From assembly GCF_000003815.2 (NCBI RefSeq), contig NC_049983.1, positions 16,130,403 through 16,194,402 on the forward strand: DNA of 64,000 bases, read 5' to 3'. A program made the position numbers and the translations under genes. Shown here in pieces: positions 19,347 to 47,600 of this stretch (positions are counted from its first letter, which is position 1; the number at the start of each line of letters is the position of its first letter). The notes beneath the pieces are model-generated. The model was not told the origin of the DNA, did not search any database, and was given only the letters and a program-made list of their open reading frames with translations. This DNA is from Branchiostoma floridae (Eukaryota > Chordata > Leptocardii > Amphioxiformes > Branchiostomatidae).

Positions 19347-22300
19347 ATGACTCCTCACTTTGCGCTTGTCCTGTCTCTGACAATCCTGGCTTGGGGCGTC
19401 CACTCAGGTATGATCCCGTCATACGAGAGAAGCACAACGTTAACTGGAAGTAATAATGACCTTTCATCTTTGCCGTCACGTCAATATTATCACAATGTGC
19501 AAGTGTTGTATCTTACATTGTATCCTACCATGATATGAAGATAATCTCTTGCAGAATGGTATCCAAACTACGATGAAGTTATTAATTTGGGCATATTTCT
19601 CAATTTGTTTCAAAGTCGCATTCCTTTCATGATTTCTTTCAGAATGTAATCATAATGTTGACTAACTTTCTCACAGGTTTGAATGCCAAACTTTAAGCTG
19701 ATGGACATGTTTATAGAAAAAAATAATATTCGCTTCTGCATGATTTACATTTGTCACACATGTGTAAAGCTATTGTTAATCGACTTTCTCCCAGAGCCCA
19801 TGTCTCCAGACGACCAACAGGCCAGCGAACTGCCGGCAGACGAAGATGAGCCATTATCCAACCTTCAGGAAGCGAAGATGCTCTTGAGAGAACTGGAAGG
19901 TACCGATGTTTCCTCTTCCAGTTCCTGTAAGCAGATATGCTACATCTGTAAGAAAGGAGTAGAAGCACACAGAAACAACATCCAAATTGAATATTCGGTC
20001 ATTTTTTTGTGGTCAATCCTACTTTCAATTGATCTACTTTATTGCAGTGTATAATGTGTTCTAGTGAGCTTATGTAGCGGCTTAACTAAAACTTGGGAGA
20101 TATAAATGGATTCAATGGAACATGGGTGACATATGCCGTTTCCGTGTTATGTTTCATTTAATGTCAGAACTTTAACATAACTGAATCCAATAATTTGGAG
20201 GCAATATAGCTTTGGAATTGCGCTGCACTAAAGAACGTCAAAGTGTTCTGTGTTAAGCCGCTTGGTATCATGTATCACAGAATTGGCCGGCGAAGAAAGG
20301 ATGACCGAAAACAACGATGACTTGTCTGTACTTACCGAGAAAAGAACTTATGCTTTGCACGGTGAGTGTTATTAATATCGTTATGACATTGTGCGCAAAA
20401 TTTCCATCCACGACCTCATATACTGTAAATGCATTTAACTTCGCGGTGATTTAATTTAGCGGTAGCGGGAAAAGGACTGTTCGCGGTGGTTTTAGGTTCG
20501 CGGTAGCACCATGCACTGTTACTGCCATGGAAAAATATTCGCGGTGGTTTTAAGTTCGCGAAAACCGCGACCATAGAACCACCGCGAAAATTTCTGCAGT
20601 TACAGCCTTTATTTGCAATTTATTGTTGAGCATCTATTGATGATGGTGTGCGTCTTCAGTCTTGGCAAAATAACTAATTGGCATACATTTGTTTTTTTAT
20701 TCGAACATTTTTACAGACCCAAACGTTGCAGCTGGAAGACCTGCATATCAGTCGAGCACGGGCTATGGAGGTAGCCCAGGCCGCGCTGTAGACGGGGGGA
20801 GGAGCTCTCACTGGGGACACAACTCCTGCACCCACACACACGCCGAAACCAACCCGTGGTGGTACGTTGACTTGGGAAAGGCAGTCACGGTTGACCACGT
20901 GGCTATCGTCAACAGGCAGGACTGCTGCGCCGACAGGATCACCCCGCTTGACGTCCATGTTGGGTACAGCACTGAGGTGGCGAGGAACGCGAGGTGTTTG
21001 TTTGTTTATTTATTTGCACAAAATACATGAAACAATACAGAAAAGAATACATAAAAACGCTACAGGTGCAGGAGGAGGGGAAAACCGTCAACGGCTTATA
21101 CTATGCCCTCATCCTCTACACTAAACAATATATATAATAGTCAATAATTAACAAAAAGTAACACATGGGATATGATAATAATTTAAAAGAATAATCAAAT
21201 AATATTTGAAAAATAATTTGAGATAAGATAATAACTGAGACTACTATGAGGGACTAGGGTGGTTTATGAGATGGGTTTTCAGGGCACTTTTAACCGTAAG
21301 AGAAGAAGAAGTTTTTTGTATATTTTTCTGAGGTGTGGGGATCATCACCAGTTTCCGAACGGGCAGAAAGAGCTGACTGTCGGCTGTGGTGGGAAGCGGG
21401 GCAGGTACGTGGGGATCAGGCTGCCGGGCAACCAGAGAATCCTGACGTTGTGTGAAGTGGAGGTGTATGCAGGTAAGATTCAATTATTCTCTACATAGAG
21501 ATGTGGTAGAATAATCAGGATTCGGACTTATCCTTACGACTTTCATAGATTGCCCAGAGACTGTAACAAGCTACACCTGGGGGTTGCTTAGTCTCTACCA
21601 GACTCCATAGGTCGGCTGTACTTCTCTGGTCGGCTTACTCCTCTATTTGTTCAATTTCTACGTTTTTTTCCAGCGACCTATGGAGTCTGGCAGAGACTAG
21701 GGGTTGCTAGCAAAGAAGCACACAGCACGACTTCCATTTTGTTTCCCCCTCCTCCCCACAGCTACCAGTGACGTCACAGCCCTGTCTGCTTCAGACTTTC
21801 CTCGATACACCTTCCCAACGGTGAACCACAGCGAATCCATTGACAGCAGACCCACTCGATGCCAGTCTGTTGTGTAGAAACTGTCCTATAGCTTGTTTTA
21901 CACGTTATATCGATGATCATCTCCGTCTTCATCAATTTGTTTTGCTTCCTTCCAGCTCCAAACCGAGCCCTGGGACAGCCTGCCGTCCAGTCAAGTGTTG
22001 GATGGAGTGGATTTTCTACCCGAGCGGTGGACGGCTGCCGCGACCCCAACTACGGCCAGCAGTGCTGTACCCACACCCAGGCCCAGACCAATCCCTACTG
22101 GTCCGTGGATCTGGGTTCCCAAAAACGAGTGCAATGGGTGGTCATCACCAACCGCAGGGACTGCTGCCGTGGGCGACTCAACCCCTTCACCATCCACATC
22201 GGGAACTCCGCTAACGTCGCGAGCAACCCACGCTGCGGCGGCCATCACACCATCCCCGCCGGCAAGGACAAGGATGCCATCAACTGTAACGGGATGAGGG

Positions 22301-24150
22301 GACGATATGTGGGGATCCGACTGCCAGGCCACGGCCGTATGCTGACACTGTGCGAGGTCGAAGTCTATGAAGGTATGACGACAAAATCCAAGTTTTGCCT
22401 TTAAGTTAGCTTTTCAGGTATTCGCAACTTTATTTTATTACTACACATCGCAAAGCTGTTCAAGCTAGCGGAAAATTCAAGTTTGCTCATAATGTGCGCG
22501 GACGCGTGTTTTACAAGCAAATGCACGTACTTACACGCTGTGCGTAGTGCCATACAGCAACTCCTAGCTATAGATATGAAGGAAATGCAGGATATTTGAC
22601 AACCAAACAGAATCAGTGAGCCGAGAAGACGATGCTTGTCCTTGCTTTAGGCTACGGCCCCAATTGCACCGGTGTCGGTCACGGGTGTAGCTCTGACCGG
22701 GCTCCGAGGCCACAAATTGTCCCGGTGGCCTGCCGGATACCGGGTGGCACCCCTCGGTGTTACCTACGGATAGGTCCCAGCGTTTATTTGTTTACCGGGT
22801 TACGGGATGATTTTAAGTCCGACTTTAAAATCAGCCCGGGGCCCGGGCGTACTCAAATGTATTCCTGGAGCCACAGGGTATCTATCCCACGGTGCCACGT
22901 AGGGATCTCACCCGAAAGTACAAAAAAGCAGCCCGTGAGCTGCCTGGTAGAGCCCCCTTTTCCAGCTTTTTGTTGTTGTTGCAGGTAGTGGATACAAGAA
23001 GAGGACATCTGACGTACGAGGCATTGAGGGTCAGGGCTGTGGAGAACATGAGGTTAGACTCTTCCCGCCATATTCCTTTGTCAAAAGACGAGATTAGTAC
23101 TGTTTCGATAACATATGATCAATTTCATTGAATGGCATACACTTATACTAGCACCAATACTCAAAACGCAATTACAAGGAATGGCCCTGGATAAGGCTTA
23201 GCTCCCATTTCCGAAACGGCGTCCTGCCGGGATGTTTGCGGAAACGGAAAATAAAAGTGTTTACTAAGGAACATACACAAAGTATGCTCCTGACTATTTT
23301 TTTTACGTTCTGTGTGTTTTGTTATCTTTTTTTTTTCATTTCCAAAAGCTACCCGGCCGGTCCCGTGTTGGGATTTGGGACCTAGGCCTAAGGCAGCTTA
23401 AAGGAATCCTAAACTAAGGCCGGGAGTGTTACTTTCCAATAAATTATACTTCAATGAATACATAAACACTGATATATATAGACTCTTCCCACCATATTCC
23501 TTTGGAACTAAATGTCAAAAGACGAGATTAGCAGTGTTTCGATAACAAATGATCAATTTCTTTTAATGGCATACACTTATACTAAGTACTGACACTCAAA
23601 GCGCAATAAGAAGTGATGACCCTGACTAAGACAGCTTAGTATTGATGTATATATGTCAGGGTAGAGACAGCGATCTAGTAGAATCGGCAGTAAAGATCCC
23701 GATCGGAGTTTTTGCCGACAGAATCGCCGATTCTACCAGATCGCAGTCTCTACCCTGACATATGTCTATAGGAAGGAGACGTCTGGCTATCTGATGAGGA
23801 TAAACACAACTGCATCTGTGACCTGAACGAAGCGGTGTGCACCAAGGTGGACTGTGGGGAGGATGGGGAGGACCAGGAGCCTACCAAGGACGAAGACGGA
23901 ATGTGGTCCTGCCCCGAGATTCCAGATGCCACGAGTGAGGAGGAACTGGGTAATGTGTCACCTCTAAACCTGCCATATATTCCAAACCTGCAAGGTGTCA
24001 CTGCTGCAGTGTCAGTCTATCTATCTATCTGGATATCTATCTCTGCCATAATCTATCTCTATCTATCTATATACCGGCATCTATCTAGTATCTCTCTGCT
24101 TTTATCCCTCTCTGTCTATCTGTCTATCTATCTATCTATCTACCTATCTA

Positions 24151-24181
<31 letters not shown>

Positions 24182-24364
24182 GCGTGCTGTCTACATATGT
24201 TTAGAACAGATAGATAACAGATCGATAACAGTCGTCTACAAGACTTTTCATGTTGCACTTTTTTTTTCTCTCAAGAATGTTGAAAGTAAAAGTTGATCTC
24301 TTTTGCAGAGCCGGGAATACCGGACGAAACTGCCAGGGCCATGGTGGGGGAACTCCAGGCCTAA
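19347..24364 (+). CDS. Lectin gene A: secreted double F-type lectin with VWC-like tail
   Basis: Predicted exons: 19347-19407, 19795-19899, 20281-20361, 20717-20993, 21333-21472, 21956-22372, 22985-23052, 23772-23949, 24309-24364; 1383 nt, 460 residues, in frame throughout with GT/AG borders. Domains: signal peptide 1-20 (ALVLSLTILAWGVHS), acidic linker to about 83, F-type lectin 1 (83-222), F-type lectin 2 (222-361), and a Cys-containing tail ([27 protein letters not shown]) resembling a short VWC domain. Each F-type domain keeps the fucose triad: CTH, then 26 residues to R in NRxDCC, and the second R seven further on. The F-type family binds L-fucose on glycans. Oddity: exon 4 is split by a LINE insert (20998-21329) that must be spliced out; otherwise the gene is broken. 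Compared with gene B it lacks all tectonin exons and one pair of acidic exons. Confidence 0.85.
20423..20605. mobile_element. MITE with TTCGCGGTGG motifs in gene A intron 3
   Basis: The ends CTGTAAATGCATTTAACTTC and TTTCTGCAGTTACAG are imperfect inverted repeats. Inside, TTCGCGGTGGTTTTA and its reverse complement ACCGCGAA recur. The flanks CATATAC / CTTTATTTGC are joined directly in gene B (about 38342-38356), so B shows the empty site. Confidence 0.8.
20994..21332 (+). other. Candidate transposon-derived intron in gene A
   Basis: Splicing from GAG|GTGTTTG (20993/20994) to TATTTTTCTGAG|GTGTGG (21332/21333) removes 339 nt and restores the exon of gene B to the base: 277 + 140 = 417 nt, the same as exon 49682-50098. 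The sites lie in the two copies of the duplicated GAGGTGT. The acceptor is preceded by a pyrimidine-rich GTTTTTTGTATATTTTTCT. Unspliced, the frame runs into a stop soon after the insert begins. No transcript evidence is available. Confidence 0.7.
20998..21329 (-). mobile_element. 5'-truncated LINE 3' fragment inside a lectin exon
   Basis: The insert is flanked by GAGGTGT (20991-20997 and 21330-21336). On the plus strand it opens with TTGTTTGTTTATTTATTTGC, the reverse of a microsatellite-like LINE tail. Reading the minus strand, it begins with the last codons of an ORF2 (VKSALKTHLINHPSPS, stop) followed by a 3' UTR. The same family lies in the plus direction at about 35145-35465 (GTGCCATGAAACACACATC, ACCACCCTAGTCCC and the AAATAAACAAACAAA tail). 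Confidence 0.88.
21589..21699. mobile_element. 111-bp MITE with 9-bp target duplication
   Basis: The ends TAGTCTCTACCAGACTCC and GGAGTCTGGCAGAGACTA are near-perfect inverted repeats that continue as ATAGGTCG and CGACCTAT. It is flanked by GGGGTTGCT at 21580-21588 and 21700-21708. In gene B the matching intron reads CACCTGGGGGTTG then TTAGCAAAGAAGC with no insert. Confidence 0.92.
22640..22900. repeat. GC-rich insertion in gene A intron 5
   Basis: This stretch is rich in CCGG words and includes TTTTAAGTCCGACTTTAAAA, a near-palindrome also present as TTTTAAGTCGGACTTAAAAT in the matching intron of gene B (about 51909). Most of the rest is missing from B. The element class is unknown. Confidence 0.5.
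23056..23640. repeat. Imperfect intronic duplication
   Basis: AGACTCTTCCC-CCATATTCC, AAAAGACGAGATTAG and TGGCATACACTTATACTA occur twice, at about 23056-23205 and 23482-23635. Gene B has a single short version after exon 12. The copy in gene A therefore arose after the gene duplication or was lost in B. Confidence 0.7.
23657..23757. mobile_element. 101-bp hAT-like MITE
   Basis: CAGGGTAGAGACAGCGATCT and AGATCGCAGTCTCTACCCTG are the inverted ends. The flanks are ATATATGT (23649-23656) and ACATATGT (23758-23765), an 8-bp duplication with one mismatch. The element lies directly before the acceptor of gene A exon 7. Gene B lacks it. CAGGG ends with 8-bp duplications are typical of hAT. Confidence 0.85.
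24012..24182. repeat. (CTAT)n and (CT)n microsatellite
   Basis: Runs of CTAT, interrupted, end in a (CT)n block at about 24150-24182. It lies in the last coding intron of gene A. The same intron of gene B keeps a much shorter version at about 52365-52395. Confidence 0.9.
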
Positions 24365-28508: not shown

Positions 28509-28689
28509 AGGATTTTTGCTCGAGCTCCAGATATCTGATATTGTTTGTGGAAATCTGAGCTGTTTGCAAGCTTACGAGGAACAAAATTGTGAGAGTGTAC
28601 ACTGGTGAGTTGCAGAGTCCCTGGAAAACATATGAGAAGCCGGAACTATAGCTTTTTGAAACGGAAATCCGGATCAAAACGCATCCAAC

Positions 28690-29835
28690 ATGGCGGCGCG
28701 GGGGCCCCCCTCCCACCATCACCAGCAAAACCAACCAGAGAGAGTCGAGCCACTGTTTGTGCAGGTTTCCGACGTATACATCGGAGCGGACGCCGAGGCA
28801 CTGTCATGTGTAGAGATCTGTCTTGCGGCTGAGGAGGTTTCAGGACCTGTCACAGTTGTAGGAGCGCAACCTCAGGGCAAGGGCAGGACACACTGGCGTC
28901 TGTACCCACGCACCAACCAAGACCGCCTGAGCTTAATCCAAGCAGGTACTATCACACTCAGGGAACAAGAGGCCTCACTGCTACAGAAGAACCCCTTCGT
29001 CGTGAGGCCAGGGACTGCAACTACCAGAGTGATTGTGAGTAACATACCATTATCGTATGACAACGAAGAAATAGGGAAAACTCTCAGCACAAGAGGCTAC
29101 AAGCTACTGAGCCGTGTCATTGATGAGAGAGCTCGGAATAAGGAGGGTAAGCTAACACGCTTTCTGACGGGCAGAAGATTTGTCTATATCGAGAAGCCTA
29201 GCACACCTCTCCCTCCCAAGATGTCCGTAGGACTTTTTGTGGCTGAGTTCTACCACAGAGAGCAGAAAGAGGCCAATCGTACTAGAGCACAAAAATGCAG
29301 CAACTGCCTACTGGAAGGGCACCACAGAAGCACCTGTGAAAATGAGGTAGTCTGTCTGCAGTGTAGGAAGCCTGGTCACAGGAGAGGTGACCCAAATTGT
29401 GATTTGGATGGAGAAGTCACCGACACTACCAGTCTGCCAGACACACGCACTGACAACACAAGAAAGAACACTGCTGCACCAGGACAGGAACCTGAGCAGG
29501 AGCAAGACAGTGATACAGGAGACGAGACCTCTGACATGGACGAGACAAATGGAGAACTTGTTCCGAACAGTCAGAACAGTCAACCAGGACGAGCAGACAC
29601 CAGGTCGCAGGGAAGAAAGGAGTACCCTACAAGGAGCAGAAGCCACAGCCGTGTCAACAACCGGCAAGTAGAGCAACACACCGAACAGGACAAAGTGGAC
29701 AATAACTCTAGCAACAACTCCCTGGAACGTGACTCAGCACAGCCATCAATCGAGATGTGGCTAAAAGAACAGAGAAAAACTGAAACAAAACAAAGTGCAA
29801 AGAATAAGTCATCAAAGAGGAGAAAAAACACATAA
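28690..29835 (+). CDS. LINE ORF1 protein (nucleic-acid binding, CCHC zinc knuckles)
   Basis: 381 residues. The ATG at 28690 sits in AACATGGCGG, a good context, and is the first ATG of this frame. Residues about 95-180 (RVIVSNIPLSYDNEEIGKTL, then LTGRRFVYIEK) look like an RRM-type fold as in Tx1/L1 ORF1 proteins. Residues from C203 hold two zinc knuckles: CSNCLLEGHHRSTC and CLQCRKPGHRRGDPNC. The C-terminal half is charged, rich in Gln, Ser, Thr and Arg, and probably disordered. Known role of such proteins: coating the element RNA and assisting integration. It is separated from ORF2 by 99 bp, so ORF2 is probably reached by reinitiation. Confidence 0.93.
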   Translation: MAARGPPSHHHQQNQPERVEPLFVQVSDVYIGADAEALSCVEICLAAEEVSGPVTVVGAQPQGKGRTHWRLYPRTNQDRLSLIQAGTITLREQEASLLQKNPFVVRPGTATTRVIVSNIPLSYDNEEIGKTLSTRGYKLLSRVIDERARNKEGKLTRFLTGRRFVYIEKPSTPLPPKMSVGLFVAEFYHREQKEANRTRAQKCSNCLLEGHHRSTCENEVVCLQCRKPGHRRGDPNCDLDGEVTDTTSLPDTRTDNTRKNTAAPGQEPEQEQDSDTGDETSDMDETNGELVPNSQNSQPGRADTRSQGRKEYPTRSRSHSRVNNRQVEQHTEQDKVDNNSSNNSLERDSAQPSIEMWLKEQRKTETKQSAKNKSSKRRKNT

Positions 29836-29934
29836 GTATACTTTATATCTTACACATGTACATGTATCTCATATGAGTATGCTTTATATCTTGTCAGATA
29901 CTTCCCTCTCAAATCCACACAATCCCTCGCTTAG

Positions 29935-32900
29935 ATGATGACACACAGAAACATGAAGCTGATCTCCTTCAATTGTAGAGGAATCAGATCATACAATAAA
30001 AGACTAAAAATTTTAACTTGGTTAAAAAAGAAGAAGACTGACATATGCCTTTTACAGGAAACTTATCTGACAAAGGATATAATACATACTATAGATAAAC
30101 AATGGGGTGGTAAAACCATCCACTCTTTTGGTACAAACCATAGTAGGGGTGTAAGCATTCTATTTGACAGTAAACTGCCTGTAGAAATTCTAGAACAAAA
30201 AATTGACACTGAAGGAAGGAAAATTGTTGTGAATTTCAAATTGTACCAGGAAAAATATACCCTACTATGTTTATATGCACCAAACGATCAAAGACAGAGA
30301 AGAACTTTCTTCTATGACATTCAAGAATGGTTACATGACTGGAATTTATACACAATGTTGGTTGGAGGTGATTTCAACTCCATACTTGACCAAAATATGG
30401 ACCTTCTTGGTGGGTCCCTGGCGACAATTGACAAAAATCAGGCCGTAAGGGACCTTTGTGCCCATTTCAACCTACAAGATATATTTCGGCACATGCATCC
30501 CACACTGAAAAGTTTCACTTGGAGAAGAAAAACAACTGCACGAAGGCTAGATTACTGGTTGGTTGAAAACACCTTGACTGATGTTATGGAAGCTGGCCAT
30601 TATGCCAGTATTTGCAGTGATCACAATGCTGTGTTTATAGATATGCATGTTAAGGAAACACCAAGAGGAAATGGATTCTGGAAACTAAATGTTAATCTTT
30701 TAAACGATCCAAACTATAAACACGAAATAGAAAGGCTTATAGAAGATACCAAAATAGAATTCAAACAGTGTAAACCAGAACTTATATGGGAAATATGCAA
30801 AATGAAGATCAAAGAGCTGTCTATAGCATGGTCAAAGTTTAAAACTAAAGAGAGAAACACCTTAGAAAAAGAAACAACAAATAAATTGGAAACTCTACAA
30901 GAGAAAATAGATAAGGATTTAAATCCTCAAACTCTTGCTGAATATGAATGTGTTAAGACGCAGCTGGAGAGTATTCTCCTAGAAAAGGCCAAAGGTCAAC
31001 AAATCAGAGCAAAAGCAAGATATATTGCAGAAAGTGAAAGACCATCCAAGTACTTTTTGAGCTTAGAAAACAAGAAGCAAAGTCAAAATTGTATAACCTC
31101 GCTAGTGAGAGACAATGAAAAAATACATGACCAAGCAGAGATATTAAAAGAGTGTAGAAGCTTTTATCAAACTCTATACTCCTCTAAAAAGGTACCCGAA
31201 GACAAAATTGAAGACTTCCTGGGATCTATGAATATTCCAAACATACTATCTGAACAAGAAAAGCAGGAGTGTGACAAACCAATCACATTACAAGAATGTG
31301 AAGAAGCTGTAACAAGCATGAAACAAGGTAAAACACCTGGCCCTGATGGGCTTCCACCTGAATTTTACAAACTGTTCTGGCCTTCAATTGGAGTTTTAGT
31401 GCACTCTGTTATTTGCAATGCACTCAGTGAAGGAAAACTACCACCCTCCTTCAGAAAGGCCCTACTAAGATTGATACACAAAAATGGAGACATGGAATCA
31501 CTTAGCAATTGGAGACCTATAAGCCTCTTAAATACCGATTATAAGATACTTGCTTTTGTCATGGCAAATAGAATTAAACCTCTCCTGAAAGATCTAATAA
31601 ATAAGGACCAGTGTGCTTACATAAAAGGACGTTTCATAGGACAAAATGTTAGATTAATTCAAGATATAATTGACTTCTGTGACTCCAAAGATAAGACAGG
31701 TATTGTACTATTCATAGATTTTGAGAAAGCATTTGATTGTGTGGAGCACAATTTTATGTTTAAGGTATTAGAGAAATTTAACTTTGGCCCAAATTTTGTA
31801 AACTGGGTAAAGATCATGTATTCTGACTGTCTGGCCTCAGTCATCAACAATGGCTGGAAAGCCGCTAGTATACAACTGCAGCGGGGTATAAGACAAGGAT
31901 GCCCATTAAGTGCGCTACTGTTTCTTCTTGTAGCAGAGATCCTATTTTATAGCATACAAAATAACCAAAATATCAAAGGTGTCACAGTAGACGAAGCAGA
32001 AATTAAGATGTGCCAGGTGGCAGATGATACCACTGTTTTCTTGTCCACTGAAGACTCACTGTATGAAACACTTGAGTGCCTTAGCTCATTCTCTAATGTG
32101 GCTGGACCCAACTTAAACAAAGCTAAAACAAAAGGACTGTGGCTAGGTATATGGAAACACAGAAAAGATGAAATAGCAGGTATCCAATGGCCTTCTGTAA
32201 TTAAGTCACTTGGTGTAAATTTTGGTCATAGCAAGGAACAACTAATGAAATTAAACTGGGATGACAAGGTAAAACAAGTTAAAACAGTTCTCAATACATG
32301 GTGCCAAAGGAATCTTACTTTATTTGGGAAAATAACCATTGTAAAGGCATTGGCAGCTGCAAAGGTAACATATGTAATGAACATTCTTCCAACACCAACA
32401 ATAGTGTTAAAGGAGCTAAATACTGCCTTTTTTAACTTTGTGTGGAGTGGAAAAAAGGACAAAATTAAACGGAAAACTCTCATTGGCAACTATGAACAGG
32501 GAGGTTTAAAAATGCTAGACATACATAGTGTGAAAGATGCTCTCTTGGCGTCTTGGGTTAAACGTTTACTTAATGGTAAGGGTTCTTGGAGATATATCCC
32601 TTTACACTACTTATCTTCCTTAGATATAGACTTGAATTTTGTGTTTCAAATGAGTTGCATTGAAGACAAATACCTGTGTAATGTACCCCTCTTTTATAAG
32701 CAAGTTATCTATGCATGGTACAAAGCTAAAAGCAATTGTGACACAAACCAGATTATCTGGGGAAACAAGCATATTGTATCAGGGGGGAAAACACTCTTGT
32801 ACCCACATTGGATTAACTCTGGTTTTGTTTATATACAGGATATTTTACAAAATGGTACTTTTATAAGTGACAGAGAGGTATTCCGAAAACTTACCAAGAA

Positions 32901-33585
32901 ACATAACTGGATGTGTGAATTGCTCATTGTAAAAAGAGCCATACGTAAAAATTGTTGTATCGAAAGAGAAACGTTAGAAACACCAGCCTTAGATTTTCCA
33001 AAAACTTCTGTGATATACCAAAACCTTATGTTACAAATATTTATAGTTCCAAACTGCCAACAGAAATGGCAGACACATTTTGATATATACTCACTTAATT
33101 GGAAGAAGATTTGGAAAATGCTAGGCACAACTTCATGTAAAGAAACACAAATAGCAGAGCTTAATTACAAACTACTTCATCAAATTTTACCATGTGGTGA
33201 GAAATTAAGCAAATGGAGAATACAAGATGAAGATGGTCAAGTAATTGATCCTGTATGTAAATTATGTGACAGTGGTCATGTTGACAACTATAAACATATG
33301 TTCCTGGAATGTAAAAGGCTAACTAACCTGTGGAATTTAGTACATACTTCTGTACCATTTAGCCCCAGTAACCCTTATATTGATTTTGAAGAGATTATAC
33401 TGGGAAAGGTAAACCAGCCAATAAACGAAAATATCCTGAAGAAAAGAATACGAATAATATCTATAGCAAAGTGGGTTATCTTTAAAACATGGATTTTTTC
33501 TAGAAAGTGCCCACGGCCAATTTCAGGCCATAACTTATCTAACATCTTCAATTGTGAACTCAAAAACAGACTTCATGTTCTGTAA
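29935..33585 (+). CDS. LINE ORF2 protein (endonuclease + reverse transcriptase)
   Basis: 1216 residues, uninterrupted. The start ATG follows directly another ATG (29935 and 29938 region: MMTHRNMKL). The N-terminal APE-type endonuclease shows SFNCRGIRS, LLQETYL, GGDFNS (D146, N148) and SDHN (D229, H230). The RT domain has KTPGPDGLPPEFYK, NWRPISLLN, IDFEKAFD (D595), GIRQGCPLSALLF and the catalytic VADD (D697, D698). The C terminus has CKLCDSGH...HMFLECKRLTNLW, the zinc-ribbon type segment common in L1/Tx1 and plant LINE ORF2. All catalytic residues are present, so activity is plausible. Confidence 0.97.
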   Translation: MMTHRNMKLISFNCRGIRSYNKRLKILTWLKKKKTDICLLQETYLTKDIIHTIDKQWGGKTIHSFGTNHSRGVSILFDSKLPVEILEQKIDTEGRKIVVNFKLYQEKYTLLCLYAPNDQRQRRTFFYDIQEWLHDWNLYTMLVGGDFNSILDQNMDLLGGSLATIDKNQAVRDLCAHFNLQDIFRHMHPTLKSFTWRRKTTARRLDYWLVENTLTDVMEAGHYASICSDHNAVFIDMHVKETPRGNGFWKLNVNLLNDPNYKHEIERLIEDTKIEFKQCKPELIWEICKMKIKELSIAWSKFKTKERNTLEKETTNKLETLQEKIDKDLNPQTLAEYECVKTQLESILLEKAKGQQIRAKARYIAESERPSKYFLSLENKKQSQNCITSLVRDNEKIHDQAEILKECRSFYQTLYSSKKVPEDKIEDFLGSMNIPNILSEQEKQECDKPITLQECEEAVTSMKQGKTPGPDGLPPEFYKLFWPSIGVLVHSVICNALSEGKLPPSFRKALLRLIHKNGDMESLSNWRPISLLNTDYKILAFVMANRIKPLLKDLINKDQCAYIKGRFIGQNVRLIQDIIDFCDSKDKTGIVLFIDFEKAFDCVEHNFMFKVLEKFNFGPNFVNWVKIMYSDCLASVINNGWKAASIQLQRGIRQGCPLSALLFLLVAEILFYSIQNNQNIKGVTVDEAEIKMCQVADDTTVFLSTEDSLYETLECLSSFSNVAGPNLNKAKTKGLWLGIWKHRKDEIAGIQWPSVIKSLGVNFGHSKEQLMKLNWDDKVKQVKTVLNTWCQRNLTLFGKITIVKALAAAKVTYVMNILPTPTIVLKELNTAFFNFVWSGKKDKIKRKTLIGNYEQGGLKMLDIHSVKDALLASWVKRLLNGKGSWRYIPLHYLSSLDIDLNFVFQMSCIEDKYLCNVPLFYKQVIYAWYKAKSNCDTNQIIWGNKHIVSGGKTLLYPHWINSGFVYIQDILQNGTFISDREVFRKLTKKHNWMCELLIVKRAIRKNCCIERETLETPALDFPKTSVIYQNLMLQIFIVPNCQQKWQTHFDIYSLNWKKIWKMLGTTSCKETQIAELNYKLLHQILPCGEKLSKWRIQDEDGQVIDPVCKLCDSGHVDNYKHMFLECKRLTNLWNLVHTSVPFSPSNPYIDFEEIILGKVNQPINENILKKRIRIISIAKWVIFKTWIFSRKCPRPISGHNLSNIFNCELKNRLHVL

Positions 33586-34012
33586 TGTTTACTTCTATGT
33601 ACTTAAATAATAATTTTTAAGCTCATAAAAAGCAACAACAACTGTTAAACCCATAGTATGTAAACTATAGTTCTAGTCCAGTCTAGATCTACTGTGTTAT
33701 AACATACTGTAAACTATACATTGTTATGAAAGAAAAAGTCCCGAATGTTAAAAGTTACTTGTTGTTTTTGATAACCATCTACATGTATCATAATTATTCC
33801 ATGACAATTGTGGCAACCATGTGGTGTATATTGGTTATACATAATAGCCTGTATAAGTACATGAGAGAAATTCTTATATAGACAATGATACTTCTTCCAT
33901 GCGCATTACCTATTGTGTATTTCACTAGTACTTCAAATTACTCCATGTACAATAGTAGCTTAGATACTCTGTTGTTGACAAATGTATTATTTGTTTTACT
34001 AATAAAGCCTTG

Positions 34013-34040
<28 letters not shown>

Positions 34041-35144: not shown

Positions 35145-35465
35145 TATATTCAAAAGTGCCATGAAACACACATCTCATAAACCACCCTAGTCCCTTGTAG
35201 TAGTATTATTTATCTTTATCTATATTACTGTTATTATTTGATTATCTTTTTTGTATTATCATAACATATGTGCTAGTTACTCTTCTTTGTTATTCATAAT
35301 CTCATTGATCATACAATTTTGGTTGTATAGAGGAGGAGGGCAAAGCACACACTGTAAAAGGTTTCCCTCTCCTCCTGCACCTGTTTTTATACATTATTTT
35401 CTTTATTTCTTATGTATTTTGTTATGTGCAAATAAATAAACAAACAAATAAATAAACAAACAAAC
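35145..35465 (+). mobile_element. LINE 3' end fragment, same family as the insert in gene A
   Basis: From AAAAGTGCCATGAAACACAC through ACCACCCTAGTCCC, a T-rich 3' UTR, CTCCTCCTGCACCTG and the tail AAATAAATAAACAAACAAA. It is the plus-strand relative of 20998-21329. Confidence 0.8.
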
Positions 35466-35666: not shown

Positions 35667-38600
35667 ATGACTCGTCACTTTGCGCTTGTCCTGTCTCTAG
35701 CACTCCTGATTTGGGGCGTCCATTCAGGTATGACCCCCTCCTGTCATACGGGAGAGACACAACGTAAACTGGAAGTCATAATGGCATTTAATCTTTGCCA
35801 TCATGCAAATGACATCATAATGTGCAAATTTTGTTTGTATCTTACGATGTATCTTACGTATGAAGGTGAGAGCTAGGCGAATAGTAGCGTGTGTTAAGCG
35901 GAGATCAATTTATGGTAAATTTCATAATCGCATTCCTTTCATGATTTCCTTGTTTGAGAAGGTACTCACAATGTTTAATGTTGACTGACTTTCATGTAGA
36001 GCCCGTGTCTTACGTAGACCAACAGGGCAAAGGCCTGCCTCTGAAGGGGGCCATGTCCAAACTTCAGGAAAAGGAGCTTCTATTGAAGGAACTTGAAGGT
36101 ACATACTTCATTTAAGTACACAGTGCATCCCCGTACACATCAAAGGGCTATGAATAGGAACATTCTTTGTACACAATCAAGAGTTTTATTCAACCGACGT
36201 TTCGGTGACTGACTGTCACCTTCCTCAGTGCAACTCTGGCATCAGTTTGACTTGGGAGAACATGCCGTGAAATAAAGTTAATGGACTCTTTCTAATGTAT
36301 ATAAAGTAGTCGATTGCTTTTTTCACAGAGTTGGCCAAAGAAGAAGTCATGAACGACGGCAGCGATGGTACCAGCAGCATCGATTACAACATGCCTGAAC
36401 TGACAGAGAAGACGACATTTGTACCGCTCGGTTAGGCCATGTTGATTTGATCACATGGATGGCATCCTCTGGAAACACCAAAACTGATGCGAGCGTGCGA
36501 TTAAAAAAAAACGTTGCCTTCATTATGAAATCTAAGTTGTCAGGAAGGTTTAACAAATGACACAGAGTATGTATATTCCAAACAATAGATCCTTCCCATT
36601 TTGTTCTTTCACATCTTCTTTACTTTTGAATATACTTTGGCATTCTATGACATTAGTATCCGCATACTTTACATATGGCACATATTTGTAAAGCTATTGT
36701 TAATCTTTATTTATTTATTTATTGATCTTATAGGGCCGTCCCTTCAGTCTAGATGACTGATTTCCAAGGGAGCCCTGCGACAATCAACATAAACAATAGT
36801 CATACAACATAAAACGTAAATAATCGAACACAGGAGTAATAAAGTATGTAACTAGCTCAACATAAGTGAAAATTAAAAACTCAAAATCATTCACTACAGA
36901 AACAGATCGCAATAATAATCATATAAACAGATCAGAACAAAACATAAATAAACTTCAAAATCAAGCTCAATTACAAAAAATAAATACTAGGTCATTGCTT
37001 TGGTCAGAGGGGTCAGAGGTCAGATTGTAAGGCTCGTTTGAATGAATTCAGAGTGGTTTGTCCATATTTCTCCCAGAACCCATGTCTCCAGACGACCAAC
37101 AGGCCAACGAACTGCCGGCAGACGAAGATGAGCCATTATCCAACCTTCAGGAAGCGGAGATTCTCTTGAGAGAGCTGGAAGGTATCATTGTTTCCTTTTC
37201 CAATTCCTGTCAGCAAATAGGGTACATTTGTGTGCGTAAATGTGTCAGTGGACAGCATACTGGACCGCCATGTATTCTTCGCAATATCTGCTTGTAACTC
37301 CAGAAGTTGTGGATGGATCTTACTGATATTTGGTATGTGTGCAGGTATGGGGAAAACGAAGGTCAAATTCAATACTGCTCCCCTTGCGGCTTTCTAAGGT
37401 ACTACAGTGGAATTCTGGCTTTTTCTCATGTTGTGGACATTCTGTTGTCATGCGTGGTAGATAGCTCTGTCTTGGAGCAGAGAATACGTTGTGTAGGTTT
37501 GAGCCCCCTAGCAGCTTTTTTGGAACTGCAGCGACCGATTTGCTTTAGGACTTACAGAAGAGGTCGGGGAATCGTCATGACGTTTCGTATATCTTAAGAG
37601 GTGATTTAGATTATGAAATACTGATCTTGCAAATTAGTGTCTACTTTGGATAATCAATGCGGAAAGTTTATAAACCGCTGATAGAACTCTCAAACATAAG
37701 GCATATGTAATTGAGAAAGAGAAGTGTCGATTGAGATAAGTTATGAAAATGAGTACCTCATTTACATAATTAGTGATAAATGATGGGAATTTCATCTAGC
37801 GATGTTTGGAAGGTGAATATCATTAGACAGAAATTATGCTAATCATGATTTAAGATGAAATTCTACATTTACCGTATTTGCTTAGACTTTCATACGTACA
37901 ACAACTTGTTTTATTTGGGTACAGAAGAAGGTCAACTGATATAATTCATGCATATGAGTGCCTTATTTTTGTAATTAATGAGAAACATGTATAATGCTGC
38001 GTTCATAATACGAAAAAGCTAGCATCGTTTGACGATGGTCTGAGGCCGTGGAACAACATGTACATCAAACATCGGAGATATGAAATAGATTCAACTGAGC
38101 ATGTATGACATATAAATTTTCATGTGATATTTTATCTTCATTTAATGTCCTAACATTACTGAATCTATTAATTTAGAAATATATAGCCATGATCGCTTTG
38201 TTTTTAACCGATTAATATGATACTGTCTCACAGAACTAGCCGAGGAAGACAGGATGACCGATGACATGTCGGTACTTCCCGAGAAAAGAACTTCTGCATT
38301 GCTCGGTGAGTGTACCGATATCGCACACAACATTTCAACCGCATATACCTTTATTTGCAAACAATCATTCCTCATTAATTATGCAGGTTATGTGCTTCCG
38401 AAAATGATTTAATCAGGTTGGTATATGATGATAGTTTATTGATTGCAACCAATCGCTTAATTACATATTCAGGAAATTAAAATATACACACACATACATT
38501 AAAACTTAACATAGTAATAAAAAACACAGTAATAAGACTAAGCATTAACACCGTAAGACAATGCAGATGAGCTATTACTGCAGAGTAATAACTAAAATAG

Positions 38601-41600
38601 CTATTACTACAATGGTGATGGAGGATTTCAACTTGTGGTCAACTCAAATGTTTGTTAAGAAGGGCTACAAAATATGGAATTGGGCTCATTTTATAACGAT
38701 TTGTTTTAGCGACAGGGATATCAAGTTGGTTTGCTCCCTTCAGGCTTAGGAAAAAGGGAGTTTTCGCGGTGTTTGATGTTGAAACAGTTCTATAGTACAG
38801 TATGATTACCCAACGCATATCATAGGATATCCGAGCTTTCTTTTGCATAACGAGTAATGGTTATGCGCTTATTTAATTTGCTCCGTTCATATTCGCCTCT
38901 ACGTACCTACATGTAGCTATAAATGTCATTAATACTATCAACTTGTCATTGTCATTGATTATGCAAAAACGTCTTCTTTCGTATAATTTGCATCTTTAGC
39001 CAAATTGCAAATGTCTAAAGTATAAGCCCAACAGCTAATGACGAAAATAGTTTATACGCAAACGTTTTTATTAATCATATTTCAGCCATACCACAGGTAT
39101 GGTGAAATATATTGTTATATTCCAATCCATACTACAGTATGGATTGCAATATATTGTTTTTTGTCGCTTCTCTTTATCTTTTCCTTCTCCTGCCAAATCT
39201 TCAAATGGATTCAACTTTTTCATTTTCGCGCCAAATGAGCTGAAATTTGGCATGAAGGTAGGGATAGCAAATACCCGCAGACGTTTTGTTTTTCACTTTT
39301 TTTGATAGAGGCCTTAAGAATTATCATATTTAGGGTTTTTGGTCACTTTTATTTCGCGGTAGCTGTTTTTATTATGGATGTAATAATTTCAGTTTTCACC
39401 CCTACGCCGTCCGGTATAGTGGTTGAGGTCTTCGTTATGATCGCGCCTTGTGGTATTTGAATATCGTCAAGCAGATGTTGTCCTCGTCGGAATATGCCAT
39501 CTCGTTCCGGCTTTGCGTTTCTAGTATTGAGGTTGGCTTGACATAGCATACTGTTAACATTTTGCGCCGTTGATAGTCATATGCATTTTATGGTTAGAAC
39601 GTGTTTGATACTTGGGATCTTTTTTCGCGGTAGCTATTTTCATTATCGATGTAATAATTCGAGAAATCATCCCTATTTCCCTGGTATTGTGGAACAGCGA
39701 TGGGGTTTGGCAATTACTTATCTCCAAGCAGATATGGGGTTTTGTGCATGTCGTGTTGTCAGCTGTCCACAGCTGTCACTGGCCCACTTTTAAAAATGGT
39801 GTGCGTCTCAGGTATCCATTGTGAAGCTGTGTGGCTGTTTCCATTTGGTGTCGTTCGATTAAGACGCTGATTTTTCTGTTGATGAATACAGGACTGTGTT
39901 TTAAATTTGGAAGTGATAGGTATGTTAGCTTTTAAGTACGTTTTTGGTATAAGTCGATGTGATGTCTTATGTATGCGATATAAACACCGAGTCATACACC
40001 ACAGAAAACATCACAATCAACATAAACCATAATTACTAGTAGGTCACAGAGTATGTTACCTACGGTCACTTGTTGTTATTTGTTGTAACAACTCTACTGT
40101 ACATCTGAGGAATAGGCCGGGATTTGAACACCAAACCATCCAATTCGGGATTGCCAAAAGATTAGACCAATGACGGTTAAATCGTTCCCTCACCTGAGAA
40201 TAAAGTTCACAGGTGTGACTACCTGCCACAGGTAACAGGTTACATGTAAGTGTGGAGTCAGTCTAAACATAATATATAATAAAGGGTTAATGCCCCGCCC
40301 CGAGGTTTATATGGTGAGATAATCCCTGGTCAGGTGCGATAATCACCGAGTAAACCACCGAGTGAGCGTAGCGAACGACGTGGTTTATGAGCTGGTTATC
40401 GCACCTGACCAGGGATTATCTCACCATATACACAGAGGAAAAGGCGGGGCATTAACGTTATTATCATATAGCCTATCCAACTGACACATAGCCTATCCAA
40501 CTGACACAGGCCGTTTTCTGCGTGTTTACTGTAACAACCTGCGGATGACCGCGGGTGACCCCCGATAGAACGCCCGTTCTGTTTGATCACGTCAGATCGA
40601 ACAAGATTCGTGTTCTAATACCCCGACAAGAAGGAAATTTTGGGCCAAATTCGACCATCGGGTTTGTTTAGTGGGGGTGTTGAAAATCATGTTTGATCTT
40701 TTTCTGCTTAAAAATCATTTAAATCTTTTTAATTGTGTTGTATTTTAACATAAATTGTTCGAAATAAAGTCCAATACGCTGTTTAATAGATATAATCGAT
40801 AAATACTTAACACTATTGGTATTATTATTATTAGTATTAGCGTCCTGTCCCCTCTACAATGGTGCGGTCCAAAAAGGCTGCGGTTATTCTAATAACCGCA
40901 CACTTTTCAGGTTACGGCCTGATAACCCATAGGAAATGGGGGCCTCTGATTGGTCAACTCCATCTGGCTATATGATAATGTATGTCAAATTCTAGTTATA
41001 CTCTGTAACATCTCTACAGGACATCAAAATCATCTTTATGATAGATCCTATAGAAAGATAAAAAATGTAATATTCATGGTCCTGTCAACAGTGCCAATTA
41101 TTCCACTGTTGACAGGACGATCCTGTCAACAAAAATTGTCACTGTTGACAGGACGATCCTGTCAACAGTGCAAAGTTTTCTACTGTTGACAGGACGATCC
41201 TGTCAATAGCCACAACCTAAAAAAAAATTAAAAAGGTAACCAATCAATTAGCCTGAATTAATATCCTGAGGAGGATTTGGCAGCCAATCAGCGAGCCTGG
41301 TGATATCTGGAAGAGTCCATTCTTACACGGAGGGGTTCATTTTTTTTAGAATTATCTTTGGACTGGTGTTATGTAAAGTTTTTCAGTGAGTGTATTTTTG
41401 GACTGGGCTATTTTGCAATTTTACATGCGGTGTGCTGGAAGAGTCCATTCTTGCACGGAGGGGGCGTTTTTTTAAAATCCATTTTTGGACTTTGGTGATT
41501 ATGTCAAAGTCCTGTTTTAGCGGATGTATTTCTGGATTTCTCCACTTAGCATATGGGTATCACAGGAGTCCATTCTTGCACACGGAGGGGGATTTTTTCA

Positions 41601-44600
41601 AATTCAGTTTAGGATGGGTGATGATTCAAAATTCCATTTTTACAGGAAGTGTTTTTTAGACTGGTCTATTATACCTTTTCATGCACGGGGGACCTTTTTT
41701 GCTAAATTCAATTTTGGATTCGGTTTCTTATTCAAAAGGCCATGGGAGTATCACTGGTCTATTGTGCAAATTCACATGGGGTTCACTAGAGACCATTCTT
41801 GCACAGGAAAATTTGGTAAGATTCATTTTTGGATTAAACTGTCATTAGTAACAGTGATTTTTCAAATGGGTGATTTTGGAACAGTCTATTGTTGCATGGG
41901 GAGGGAGATGGCTGAAATTTGCTGTATTTGCTCTCAAGCAAATGTCGGCCTTTCTAGTTTTCAATTTGTTTTGCTGTGAATGCTTCTCTCCTCTCAGAAA
42001 CGAGGTGGGAATCCATCGGCGGGCGGCTTAAGTTCGTATCAGTTGGGTCCAACGGCGTCTGGGGAGTGAATAGCAACGATGACATCTATTACCGTACTGA
42101 CACGTTTGAAAATGCAGCGTCTTCGGGCAGCGGTTGGCAACACATCGGGGGCAAACTGAAGCAGATCTCATCAGGACACTCGGTTTGGGGTGTCAATGCC
42201 AACGACGATATCTACATACGACAAGGTCAGTATGCGCTTTCCTGATATTTCGATTGCAACAATCCTCTCAAGCCAGCCCCCAGCGCTTTTATATGTCAAG
42301 CAACTAACTATACCTACCCTCGAGCTCAATCCGTCCGTTTCGCCGCGTTAGCGCTGGCCAGCCGTCAGCCCCCCTGTTGTTGGAGGTAAAGCTACCAGCC
42401 AATCACGTTGCCTCTTGACGGTAGGCAGCGACGTGGTTGGCTGACGAGAAAAAAAGACGCTGGCCTAGAATAAGAGAATAACTTAAGTTTAAGCCAACAA
42501 GTGAAAAACATACTACTTAGCAGCGTTCCCGCCAGGTTTCTGAAAATATGCGTCCAAATATTTTGGAGGGGCGTAACGAGCGCCGGAGGCGCGAGACGAG
42601 CGCCGCAGGCGCTCGCATTCTAGGGGGTTCCGGGGGCATGCTCCCCCGGGAAAATTTGGATTTTCAAACCCTGTAGAACACAATTTCCTGCAATTTGAGT
42701 GGATAATCATGCACTTGGAATTGGATGTCGGTTGCCTCTTTTACTCCCATTTTCAGTTATCGACGACCACCCTCTTCAGTCTTCATCAAAATACATGTAC
42801 GTTATATTAAAAAAGCTATAAGCACAGGGAATCAGCCTTCCGTGACCTGGCCCGAGTTTTATTTGTCCAGACATGTCTATATGAAAATTTTGGATTTTTG
42901 ATGCTTCGAAACAGAGCTCTAGCTAGTTCGTCAGCCCATGGAAAAATTATGCCAATTTTTTTCCGTCATTGAATAAAAAGATGTCTACCTCGTGCGATCG
43001 ATGTTGGGCCCTCCCACATCAAATAGTTTTCCGTGACGATAAAATAACGGCGCTGTGTTTTTTTTCTATTTTGCCCGATGATTTTACTCAAATTTTTCGA
43101 ATCGGTGGGGTTTTACAAGGCCATACCGTCATTTTCCACGAGCGTGCGTTTGTTTCCTGCGACCTCAGGTAACCCCGTTTTCGGCGTGAAATCTTTGGCT
43201 GGATTTCTTTTTAAATAGACCAAGAACGTTATACATTACTCGAAGGAGGACGATCTGTTGCCTCTTTGGCAGTGATCCGTGCCGGTGTAGCCTTGAAGCA
43301 GTAGCCAGAAAGACGTCCCAACGTGCTGGGCGCTGCGATCGACAGTCCGTCTGGGGAGGGGGGCGTGCCGCGCCATGTGCCACGGAGGCCAACGCTAGTG
43401 CACAGCCGACTCGGTCGACGCTTGACAACAATATTGCGGCCCCTTTTCTGCCGCAAATTTTGTCTTTTTGAAACAAAATAAATTTTGTAAATAAGAAATA
43501 AAGTGTATAGTTTTGGATTCTTCACTTATTTACCGCGCACCTTTTTTTTTAACTTGGATAAATGGGGAAACTTTAATAGTAAATTGTTAGCAGCTATATA
43601 TAGGGAAGAAACTCAAGTTGCCAGACGACACGGGTGGCTACCAACGTCACGTGCGCTAATACTCGGTAACTTTTATTTTTTTCCCGGTGACCAATGACAG
43701 AGTGTAACATTACATTTATCAAATGCTGATTGGTTCTTAAAACCCTTGTCCTGCGGGCCCAGTTATATAACCGGATGCACATGCTGTGCCTGTGTGCGGG
43801 TCCGGTTATTTAACCGGTTGGGGGTATTCCCCACAGGAACATTTGTGGCTTCTGTGTGGTAACCAGGAACAGCTGGGAAGAAGATGGGGGCTGCATGAAT
43901 GGGGTCAAGGGTCAATATCCTGGTTGCGCAATCAATCCCAGAGCTCTTTGCAGGCATAAATTATGTTAATGAGCCAAGATGGCCGACTGTCGTCTGCAGA
44001 TATGTTTTTTTCATGTTTTTTTCGTGTTTTGGGGCATAAATGCTTAGTTTAGTCGCTAAAATGTCAAAGTTAACTTGGTAACAAGTGCATAAGGAGCCTT
44101 TCCCCACTGATTCTGAGGCAGAACATCCAATTTTGGGCAAGAATGGTGAAGAAATGCTGCCAAACATGAGAAAAGAAGATATGCACGTGAACTTTACCAT
44201 TTTTATGGAAAATTACCCCCCACGCAACAGGAAACGAATTAGGACAGTCTGTTAAGCTGCAAATTCGACCTTGGTTACTTTTGTGGAGGTCATTGAGTAC
44301 CTTGATGTGGCAAATAATTAGTGACAGATGGAGCTGATCATATGTTACATTATCCTATTGAACAGCCTTTTCAGCACCCAGGACAATACCTAGCCATAAA
44401 CTCACCTGCAGTGATACCTGGGTAATTTTTTTTGCTGCATGTGTGGCTCTGATGTTGTCAGTATGTCATAGGAATGTTGTAGTGTTGATACTAAGATTAT
44501 TTATGAAATTCAGGTATTATTAATACAAAAGTTTATGAAAATAACTTGTTTTATTGATTTATTACCCTTGCATATCATTTTTATGACTCAGGGTCAAACT

Positions 44601-47600
44601 TTGAAGACATTACTTAAAAGTAGAGACTCTCAGCTTTCTATTGATGTATAACATTATAGGGTTACTTAAATGCAAAGTAAGTAAAAAATAGCAAAGTAAA
44701 AGCATTTCCCATACTTTGAAGAGAATCAAAAATGCCCAGCACAGGGAGGGTATATGGGTAAAAAATTGCCAGCAGGACAAGGGTTAAGATGATTGGATTT
44801 GGACCTGGTGGCCAATCTAGACTGCTTGGCGCCGGCGGCCTGTTTTCAAAGATACCGACTGCCAATCAACTGCCCACAGCGTGAGAACTTTTGTTGAGAT
44901 GTGCAGCACTCGAGCAGAACAGTTTGTTTGTTCAATACTAGTATTACCCACAAATCTTTAACAAATACGTGAAACTGAGGACAAGTAAGTATCATGTTAA
45001 TATCAGAATATAAAATCTGTATAAGATTTCTTCGAGTGTTAAAGAAATTTTGCTGACTGTCAGATGTATTTCACGGGCTACAAAAAATTACTTTGCGCAA
45101 CGGACAGCTCAGACTGGCGCGTGGCTGGGTGTGTCGCACATGGGTCCGCTAGTTGTAAAACGTACCCCGCTCCGCCCCATGCCCAGACTACTAGGATGAC
45201 CGGAAAGTGAAGAATTTGAAGTATAAATTGTAAAGGTAGGATTCCTTCTTATAAAGACAGATTTTTGTAAAGATTCCAGATACATTTTGTACACTGGTGG
45301 TACAGGTCAGCCTTTCTTTCAGATTTTTTTATGGACGCATTCAGCCGAGCCGAATGCGTCTTTCCAGAAAAAAATGCGTCCAAAGACGTAAAGACGTATG
45401 CCTGGCGGGAACGCTGCTACTTAGTAAACGTAGTTTTGTCAACAAATGCACATGGTTCTACGGGATGACATAGTAGTATTAAGATTGAGCCAAATTTCAC
45501 ATTGATTGACTTGTCTGTTGTGACGTTTTTTGGAGAAAATGTTTTAGCTTATGCTTCACTTGTGCATAATCTGTTGCGAAGAAATCATCTTACGATTTCG
45601 TTTACTTTTAGGCATAACATCCAGTAACCCTACAGGGACCGGATGGCACAGGATTGAAGGGAAGCTCAAACAACTGGACGTCAGCTCGACCGCAAAGCAG
45701 CTGTGGGGCGTCAACAGTGGAGACAACATCTACCGGCGGACAGGGATCACTACAGCGGAACCAAAAGGTTACCGACTTCATATTCATCTTTCGATTCATA
45801 ACTCTATTCAGACAAGGGGATTCAAGCTATATATATAACCAAAGGCCAGCTGAAACCGTGTGGGGCCTCGTGGCGTAACGGCAGAGTATTCGGCTCAGAA
45901 CCAAGTGGTCCCGGGTCCAGTCCTGTCATGTCACCGACCTTGAGAAAGGCACTTTACACATCTTTCCTCACTTTAGCTCTACTCAGATGAATATGAGTAC
46001 CAAGCTCCACTAGGGCCGTCCCTCGGATAGGACATTAACGTTACATCAGCCCGCCTACCAAAAGTGACCACCAATTCCTAACAGTTGCAAGTGGTGACAA
46101 GTGTGATCGGCAATTCATTGGCAATGTGTATGTCCCACAAGTGATTATTTTCAAGATTCTTTGACACCATTGTGGTGACGTCTACTTATTGCTAATCATT
46201 TTATCATAATGGCTAATGTTCACCGTTCTTGTGGTTGCCATGGTAATGAGTGTATGCACTGTATTCATAAGAGTTCAAGATGGCAGCTACAATGTACACA
46301 TGATGTGGTTTTCTGGCGTTTGGACTCTCCTGGTTGCTGCTAATGGGAATAGAAGTCTTAGTTGACCTTTTTTTACATAAACGACGTATCCAGATTAACA
46401 CCATGATGGCGTTTTTTCCGCCACAGGTGCAGGGTGGCAACACATTTCCGGCGGGCTGAAGTTCGTGTCTGTTGGTCCCGCTGGCGTGTGGGGGGTGAAC
46501 AGAAATGACGACATCTTCTACCGTACGGGAACCTTCGGAAACGAGGCCTCTGCAGGCAGCGGTTGGCATCAAATCGGGGGAAAACTGAAGCAGATCTCGT
46601 CAGGGGACAACATTGTTTGGGGAGTCAACGCCAACGACGATATCTACGTTAGAGAAGGTCAAGATGTGAATCATGAATAACAATGATTTTGCTTAATCTA
46701 AGTGCGAGACAGGTCATCCAAAAGTTGTGAAGACTGGTAACACAAACTGAAAACAGATGTTCTTCTCTATAAGCGGGCATGTGTTTAAGTTTATAATTCC
46801 ATGCACAAATTTGATGTCTATGGCCAATGCCCCGTATTCCACCAATGCACATAATGCAGTACTGTTTTATATCATACGTTATTTGTCCAAAGGTGATTTT
46901 CAGGAACCACGTGGGTCATGTTAATATTTTAGGGGCTTTGACCTCTGGCATTACCCATGAGTCCCTGGAACTGTGAAGAAGCGTTTTATCTTTGGAACTC
47001 AGTTGACTTGTGTGGATTGGCGTTTGAATTATATGAAAAAAACCCAGAAAACTAGTAATGGACTTGCTTTGTTGTAGCGTGACTACACACGTCTTACTTC
47101 TGGTGCATATAGAATACAACACGGGGTATTCCGTACTACCCGAGGTCCCAGCCCGAGCGCGGGTCGGATCGTCCCGAAGGGGAGGGCGATCCGACCCGCG
47201 GGAGGTCTGGGACCGAGGATGATACGGAATACCCCGTGTTGTATTTTATTTATATCATGCCAACCTGAGGAAACTCATGTTTATCGCAAAAAGACGGGTT
47301 TATTTGCACATTGCGACAACAACTTTATTCGTCCATTCGAACAAAAGAACCGGGTAAAGGAACAGGCCAGTTCAATTTGGTTCGAGAAGCCAGTGTTCGA
47401 ATTTTCGACGGCGCCTTCTATTTAATCGATGGAAGCCCGTTTGCTGCAACTTCGAAGCCTGTGTGATACGGTTTTTTTATCACACGGTCCGGAACACCTG
47501 TATCGAACGTTTTCGCGTCACAGGTATGATATAAAATTACCTATATAGAGGGCACGCACCTTTCTCCACTCGAAACAAACGTTCCTGACGACTGCATGCA

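Follow-up and report, generated by a model that had tools for sequence, protein, structure and literature searches.

A LINE fragment bounded by AG/GT-bearing target duplications as a candidate nascent intron in an F-type lectin gene of Branchiostoma floridae

Introns born from transposons are already known, including one derived from a Drosophila retrotransposon; nevertheless, new introns with a readable source are few. The Drosophila element in question, Doc, is a Jockey-type LINE. In a further route, the duplication of an AGGT-bearing segment, the intron itself consists of duplicated host sequence. Intron 3 of GM26034 in Drosophila sechellia has been traced to the retrotransposon Doc1053, and in that study one gained intron was assigned unambiguously to a transposon, with 187 unassigned (PMC3296678). 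Among animals and land plants, Introners are reported from two groups only, both of them animals (PMC9860276). The new introns described in fish serpins are associated with proto-splice sites and are reported to have no similarity to repetitive elements (PMC2746811). A literature search with little coverage of subscription journals found no LINE-born coding intron in a chordate.

The locus described here lies in a 64,000-nt stretch of the Branchiostoma floridae genome (the window), in a gene designated gene A. Its exon 4 (20717-21472, plus strand, 756 nt), the first of its F-type lectin exons, is interrupted by a 332-bp fragment of a LINE (20998-21329, with the LINE sense on the minus strand), which comprises the last ORF2 codons, the 3'UTR and, at the left end, a TTTG/TTTA-type tail, and is 5'-truncated at 21329. 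The fragment is flanked by two copies of GAGGTGT (20991-20997 and 21330-21336), and this duplication is exactly 7 bp long, because the bases flanking the two copies differ on either side. Both copies contain AG/GT (the slash marks the splice boundary), the left one providing the GT of a candidate 5' splice site (20994-20995) and the right one the AG of a candidate 3' splice site (21331-21332). The candidate intron between them (20994-21332) is 339 nt long, a multiple of three, and its removal would leave 756 - 339 = 417 nt in frame, exactly the length of the uninterrupted exon (49682-50098) of the paralogous gene B. The left part of exon 4 (20717-20993, 277 nt) belongs to the first F-type lectin domain, and the right part (21333-21472, 140 nt) is open in frame. 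The end of the insert supplies a T-rich pyrimidine tract (21312-21329), and were the insert retained, the frame would stop at TGA 21028-21030, 34 nt after 20993. Each of these elements had been claimed in an earlier note on this DNA, namely the truncated fragment within the exon, the duplication with AG/GT in both copies, the restored 417-nt exon, the pyrimidine tract and the open downstream part; all hold, and a check against the sequence found the coordinates of the interruption correct to the base. The exact excisability of the insert from a lectin coding segment makes it look like a very young intron.

Gene A was modelled with gene B as a guide, over a coding span of 19347-24364 on the plus strand (exons 19347-19407, 19795-19899, 20281-20361, exon 4, 21956-22372, 22985-23052, 23772-23949 and 24309-24364). 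If the insert is spliced, its product has 460 aa, ends at a TAA and contains two F5/8-type-C-like domains (Pfam). Apart from the insert, the modelled gene is free of stops and frameshifts over its 460 codons, its splice dinucleotides are intact and its 7 other introns are GT-AG. Gene B (35667-52298, plus strand) was modelled with seven exons, its last exon being left out. The peptide of its matching exon, compared with solved structures, returned the F-type lectins FBP32 (3cqo, 1.3e-56) and 1k12 (1.2e-21). This exon, 29 kb downstream, represents the empty site without the insert; it reads ...ACGCGAGGTGTGGGGA..., without the gain or loss of a single base, and the gene B sequence across the place homologous to the insertion is ...GCGAGGTGTGGGGA....

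The two paralogues differ by 0.147 at aligned noncoding sites (2179 sites, with 26 indels to 290 substitutions) and by 0.254 at synonymous sites, and the excess of the latter may stem from gene conversion or from a bias in the alignment. At 41958-46680 there are open frames similar to tectonin repeats, between exon 3 and the first lectin exon of gene B (Pfam Tectonin, 82.7 bits for 46399-46680; the likeness of 41958-42245 was judged by eye), and the corresponding intron in gene A measures just 355 nt. The introns on either side of gene A exon 4 contain inverted repeats, perhaps MITEs, at 20423-20605 (33-nt arms, 82 % complementary) and 21589-21699 (26-nt arms, 96 %). At 46-536 of the window, open frames of a repeated short peptide occur on both strands, probably as part of a minisatellite.

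The identity of the insert was established by searching its own genome (513.4 Mb in 431 contigs, 19 of them large), which yielded at least 41 matches including the insert itself, the best-scoring other copy at 87 %. This number is a lower bound, because the second, more diverged copy of the family in the window (35152-35447, plus strand, 74 % identical to the insert) is absent from the list. The copies end at a common tail, and several reach further 5' than the insert, into the C-terminus of ORF2; in one of them (L006) the sequence beyond the 5' end of the insert reads WNSIQPNIHKTSSFLMFKSALKSHLI. A 39-residue peptide from the ORF2 end matched 66 places in the genome, some of them within open frames that run for hundreds of codons, and the insert itself was matched at 69 % over residues 9-37 (E 7.3e-5). 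Two fetched relatives, both with DNA similarity to the insert, encode a reverse transcriptase: L065 (RVT_1, 132.7 bits, with no endonuclease match) and L066 (a 971-aa frame with RVT_1 at 121 bits and a weak Exo_endo_phos_2 match of 22.9 bits, below the Pfam cut-off of 27.4). As the copies run into the ORF2 end, the relatives carry reverse transcriptase and DNA similarity is common to them, the insert is, judging from these relatives, a 5'-truncated LINE antisense to gene A; the possibility of a SINE or an unrelated insert was rejected on the same grounds. From its ORF2 end we take the element to be CR1/Jockey-like. Among other LINE copies, one (L007, C9:21985677-21986014) has a truncation point that nearly coincides with that of the insert, and two near-identical ones (L015 and L016, C13:21094927 and C13:20832967) lie on opposite strands 0.26 Mb apart, perhaps after a recent segmental duplication. 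A long LINE between genes A and B (28660-34040), with open frames of 391 and 1216 aa and a poly-A stretch, encodes RVT_1 and an endonuclease in its second frame, and the insert has no match there.

The polarity of the event follows from the lectin exons of the same genome. When the lectin-exon peptide was searched against it, 150 of 481 candidate matches were scored (their ranges being copied by hand from the table), and 144 of the 150 cover residues 82-103 unbroken, 51 spanning the whole exon. The six that do not cross the site are the two halves of gene A, three matches ending by residue 80 and one distant copy on C8, whose match stops 8 nt past the homologous position, at a GT. With 144 of 150 matches unbroken at the site, the insertion is derived and, as far as the 150 scored matches indicate, specific to gene A. 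The opposite scenario, the loss of an old intron from gene B, was rejected given the 144 unbroken matches and an insert bounded by a target duplication. None of the 150 scored matches (of 481 candidates) represents the other haplotype of gene A on an unplaced contig; after genes A and B, the next match is 69 % identical. At the end of a distant lectin exon on the minus strand of C8 (L067, C8:21713200-21715000), 30 nt including GGAG/GTGA are repeated identically 282 nt on, and a duplicated segment of this kind, with its AGGT, could offer a further way for an intron boundary to arise.

In an alignment of 21 copies (the insert and 20 others, after 8 short or poorly aligned copies out of 29 were left out), the insert's own branch measures 0.044 substitutions per site and the three-point median 0.052, both of which are upper bounds on its age because part of the branch may date from the source element. 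Dating through the second copy in the window was uninformative at 26 % divergence. Lancelets are reported to carry one SNP per 34 nt (PMC12373286); given that density, an insertion near the upper-bound age would be old enough for fixation, and a younger one need not be fixed.

The splice signals of the candidate intron were scored with a position matrix of base frequencies at splice sites, a check proposed in the earlier note. The donor GAG/GTGTTT at 20994 reaches 1.02 bits, the 93rd percentile among the 8146 GTs that the two strands of the window contain, and the acceptor at 21332 reaches 2.43 bits, the 94.9th percentile of 7366 AGs, and is the top-scoring acceptor between 20990 and 21400. 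The other modelled donors of genes A and B range from 0.15 to 7.22 and the acceptors from -3.03 to 8.96 (the last exon of gene A being unscored), and three of these donors (0.15, 0.24 and 0.79) score below the one at 20994. Lectin exons from 30 fetched loci, 36 of them distinct, were used for comparison. In 27 of these both boundaries were in the expected phase, and the other 9 were set aside; genes A and B account for 3 of the 27. At each exon end the highest-scoring nearby site in phase was chosen, so that the set leans to strong sites. The donor at 20994 scores below all 27 (minimum 3.86), none of which has T at +5. The acceptor ends in GAG, with a G at -3 found in 0 of the 27 lectin-exon acceptors, yet 8 of these score lower. 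The exon offers 837 combinations of donor and acceptor, and the exact one, 20994-21332, ranks 4th. A single YTNAY branch-point match, TTAAC (21290-21294), occurs 18-45 nt upstream of the acceptor, at a distance of 39 nt, followed by the T-rich tract; the AGs at 21302-21311, between this match and the acceptor, count against the candidate intron.

How easily such an arrangement could arise by chance was estimated by simulating the LINE fragment with a 7-bp duplication at 1257 coding positions of gene A (last exon left out). Exact GT-AG removal resulted at 68 positions, and at 18 with a donor of at least 1.0 and an acceptor of at least 2.4; the coding sequence of gene A has a 7-mer bearing AGGT at 32 of its 1321 positions. 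These observations are best explained by a nascent coding intron of LINE origin that is probably at least partly spliced, a reading to which a probability of about 0.58 is given on the sequence evidence. Target-primed reverse transcription would have placed a copy of an endonuclease/reverse-transcriptase LINE in exon 4, antisense and 5'-truncated, at a 7-bp target that by chance read GAGGTGT, whose duplication would have set AG/GT at both ends. The left copy would then serve as the 5' splice site and the right copy provide the AG, with the reversed 5' end of the LINE contributing the branch point and pyrimidine tract. Splicing would take out the insert together with one duplication and restore the pre-insertion mRNA, by which gene A would have been kept working. 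The earlier proposal that the insertion created a new intron thus stands in respect of the insertion, its derived polarity, its exact spliceability and the otherwise intact gene; that the RNA is spliced at 20994-21332, with whatever efficiency the spliceosome uses this pair, is what we infer.

The foremost rival is a pseudogenising insertion, in which the insert is retained, translation ends at the in-frame stop, the loss of gene A, or of this allele, is under way and the AG/GT in the duplication is coincidental. The weak splice sites are consistent with it, as is the reported variation of gene content among lancelet individuals (PMC12373286). Against it, had gene A been dead for the upper-bound age of 0.044, about 8.3 lesions would be expected over its 460 codons, compared with none found besides the insert (P(0)=0.0003, assuming that four in five indels are frameshifts); at 0.01, however, the expectation falls to 1.9 and P(0) rises to 0.15. 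The coincidence itself would have to fall on one of only 68 or 18 of the 1257 simulated positions.

The pairwise dN/dS of genes A and B is 0.27 (bootstrap 0.18-0.39, last exon left out). On the A branch, which also argues against loss, dN/dS over exons 4 and 5 is 0.17, compared with 0.56 on the other branches, and a value of 1 is rejected (2dlnL 21.8). For exon 4 alone it is 0.27, which also fits better than 1 (2dlnL 10.1), for the right part of exon 4 with exon 5 it is 0.10 (2dlnL 17.1) and for the left part of exon 4 it is 0.29 (2dlnL 5.3). When the A branch was split into a selected part and a neutral end period of 0.044, with the earlier dN/dS free, the neutral ending fitted about equally well (2dlnL 1.2 for exons 4 and 5, -0.8 for exon 4 and -0.1 for its left part; 5.0 for the right part with exon 5). 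Exon 4 alone therefore carries no signal against neutrality since the insertion. The earlier dN/dS then becomes approximately 0 for exons 4 and 5 and for the right part with exon 5; exon 4 takes a value of 0.06 and its left part one of 0.08. Under a single dN/dS for all branches the neutral period costs 4.0 lnL units, a constraint that is not justified. The selection test was accordingly rejected as proof of function, since death at the insertion still fits when the earlier dN/dS is free. The lectin exons of gene A have been under purifying selection on the A branch as a whole, and death of the exon at the insertion is compatible with the tests. Taken together, loss of the gene is regarded as unlikely, at odds of the order of one in several.

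Skipping of the whole exon, with 20361 joined to 21956, would give a protein with one lectin domain and leave the rest of gene A under selection. It would keep the frame, because both boundaries of exon 4 are in phase 1, its 417 nt being a multiple of three, and the higher A-branch dN/dS of exon 4 (0.27) than of its right part with exon 5 (0.10) points the same way. On the other hand, exon 4 is open on both sides of the insert, a weak argument with 2.1 lesions expected at 0.044 (P(0)=0.13), and its outer splice sites are intact, the donor being strong (7.22). Furthermore, when changes were assigned to A or B by majority with six paralogues as outgroups, exon 4 of gene B, which lacks the insert, had more nonsynonymous changes (16 N and 4 S) than that of gene A (12 N and 15 S). 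Exon 5 had 4 N and 6 S on A and 7 N and 12 S on B; the changes that the majority rule gave to neither gene were 5 N and 2 S for exon 4 and, for exon 5, 1 N and 7 S. Skipping is thus considered quite improbable. Slightly less probable still is an inexact intron with an altered in-frame lectin domain, using donor 20994 with another acceptor or acceptor 21332 with the stronger donor 20862 (3.01 bits; 471 nt out, in frame, open and 1st of the 837 pairs), since the identical donor sequence GTG/GTACGT lies inside the open exon of gene B and the 44 residues lost would presumably be costly to the fold. The origin and anatomy of the insertion can be regarded as settled and its use as an intron as likely from its sequence, with gene loss, skipping and inexact splicing as the alternatives.

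If the insert is indeed a nascent intron, some of its bases may have been tuned. Compared with the other copies it departs from the majority base at 15 positions, of which 12 (shared with 0 to 3 others) were kept and 3 (shared with 6 or 8) were dropped. One change, at 21294, turns TTAAA into TTAAC and creates the sole YTNAY match in the branch-point interval; the C is present in 0 of the 19 other copies with a letter there. Another, T for G at 21326 in the pyrimidine tract, adds 1.5 bits to the acceptor, which would score 0.90 with the G and reaches 2.43 with the T; of the 19 others, 14 have G, 2 have C and 3 have T (L015, L016 and L022, in which the neighbouring bases differ). Only 12 of 996 possible single changes could make a branch point or raise the acceptor by as much, and two or more among the 12 would occur with P = 0.009, by criteria set after the changes had been seen. 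Both may have arisen later or been inherited with the source copy, and in either case they would have improved the branch point and the tract; selection may have acted on them. The full proposition, a LINE-born chordate coding intron made base-exact by its target duplication and tuned after insertion at branch point and pyrimidine tract, is therefore tentative and somewhat less than an even bet. If true, the early steps of intron maturation would be readable in one locus.

Since the donor element, the target duplication, the empty paralogous site and the later changes can all be read here, a model of intron birth from a duplicated AG/GT and a chance pyrimidine tract, followed by tuning, is testable with existing data, which for B. 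floridae include 61 RNA-seq sets, 41 resequenced animals and 98 parent-offspring sets (PMC12373286).

A close parallel is GM26034, in which a retrotransposon inserted into a coding region with target-site duplications likewise became a spliceable intron; there, however, 15 nt separate the intron end from the second duplication downstream, and five amino acids were added (PMC3296678), whereas in gene A the duplication holds both splice sites and would allow exact removal. GM26034 is also an annotated gained intron (PMC3296678), and gene A a candidate known from sequence alone. Introners resemble it in drawing splice sites from the target-site duplication and, in most families, leaving mRNA length unchanged, with one reported case, in Florenciella, of both sites being co-opted from the insertion site; they differ in forming families that make many introns and are mostly DNA-transposon-like, whereas a single LINE copy is involved in gene A (PMC9860276). 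In the SINE-derived intron of rice catalase A and in Alu intronization an exonic retroposon also became a new intron, the rice case in coding sequence, but the four human cases described are in 3'UTRs, in contrast to the chordate coding exon and LINE of gene A (PMC2394776). In intron birth by duplication of an AGGT segment, the duplicated AGGT likewise gives both splice sites (cited in PMC2394776), although in gene A what lies between the two copies of the duplication is a transposon. The gene A locus would add to these systems one chordate case with unusually complete evidence of origin.
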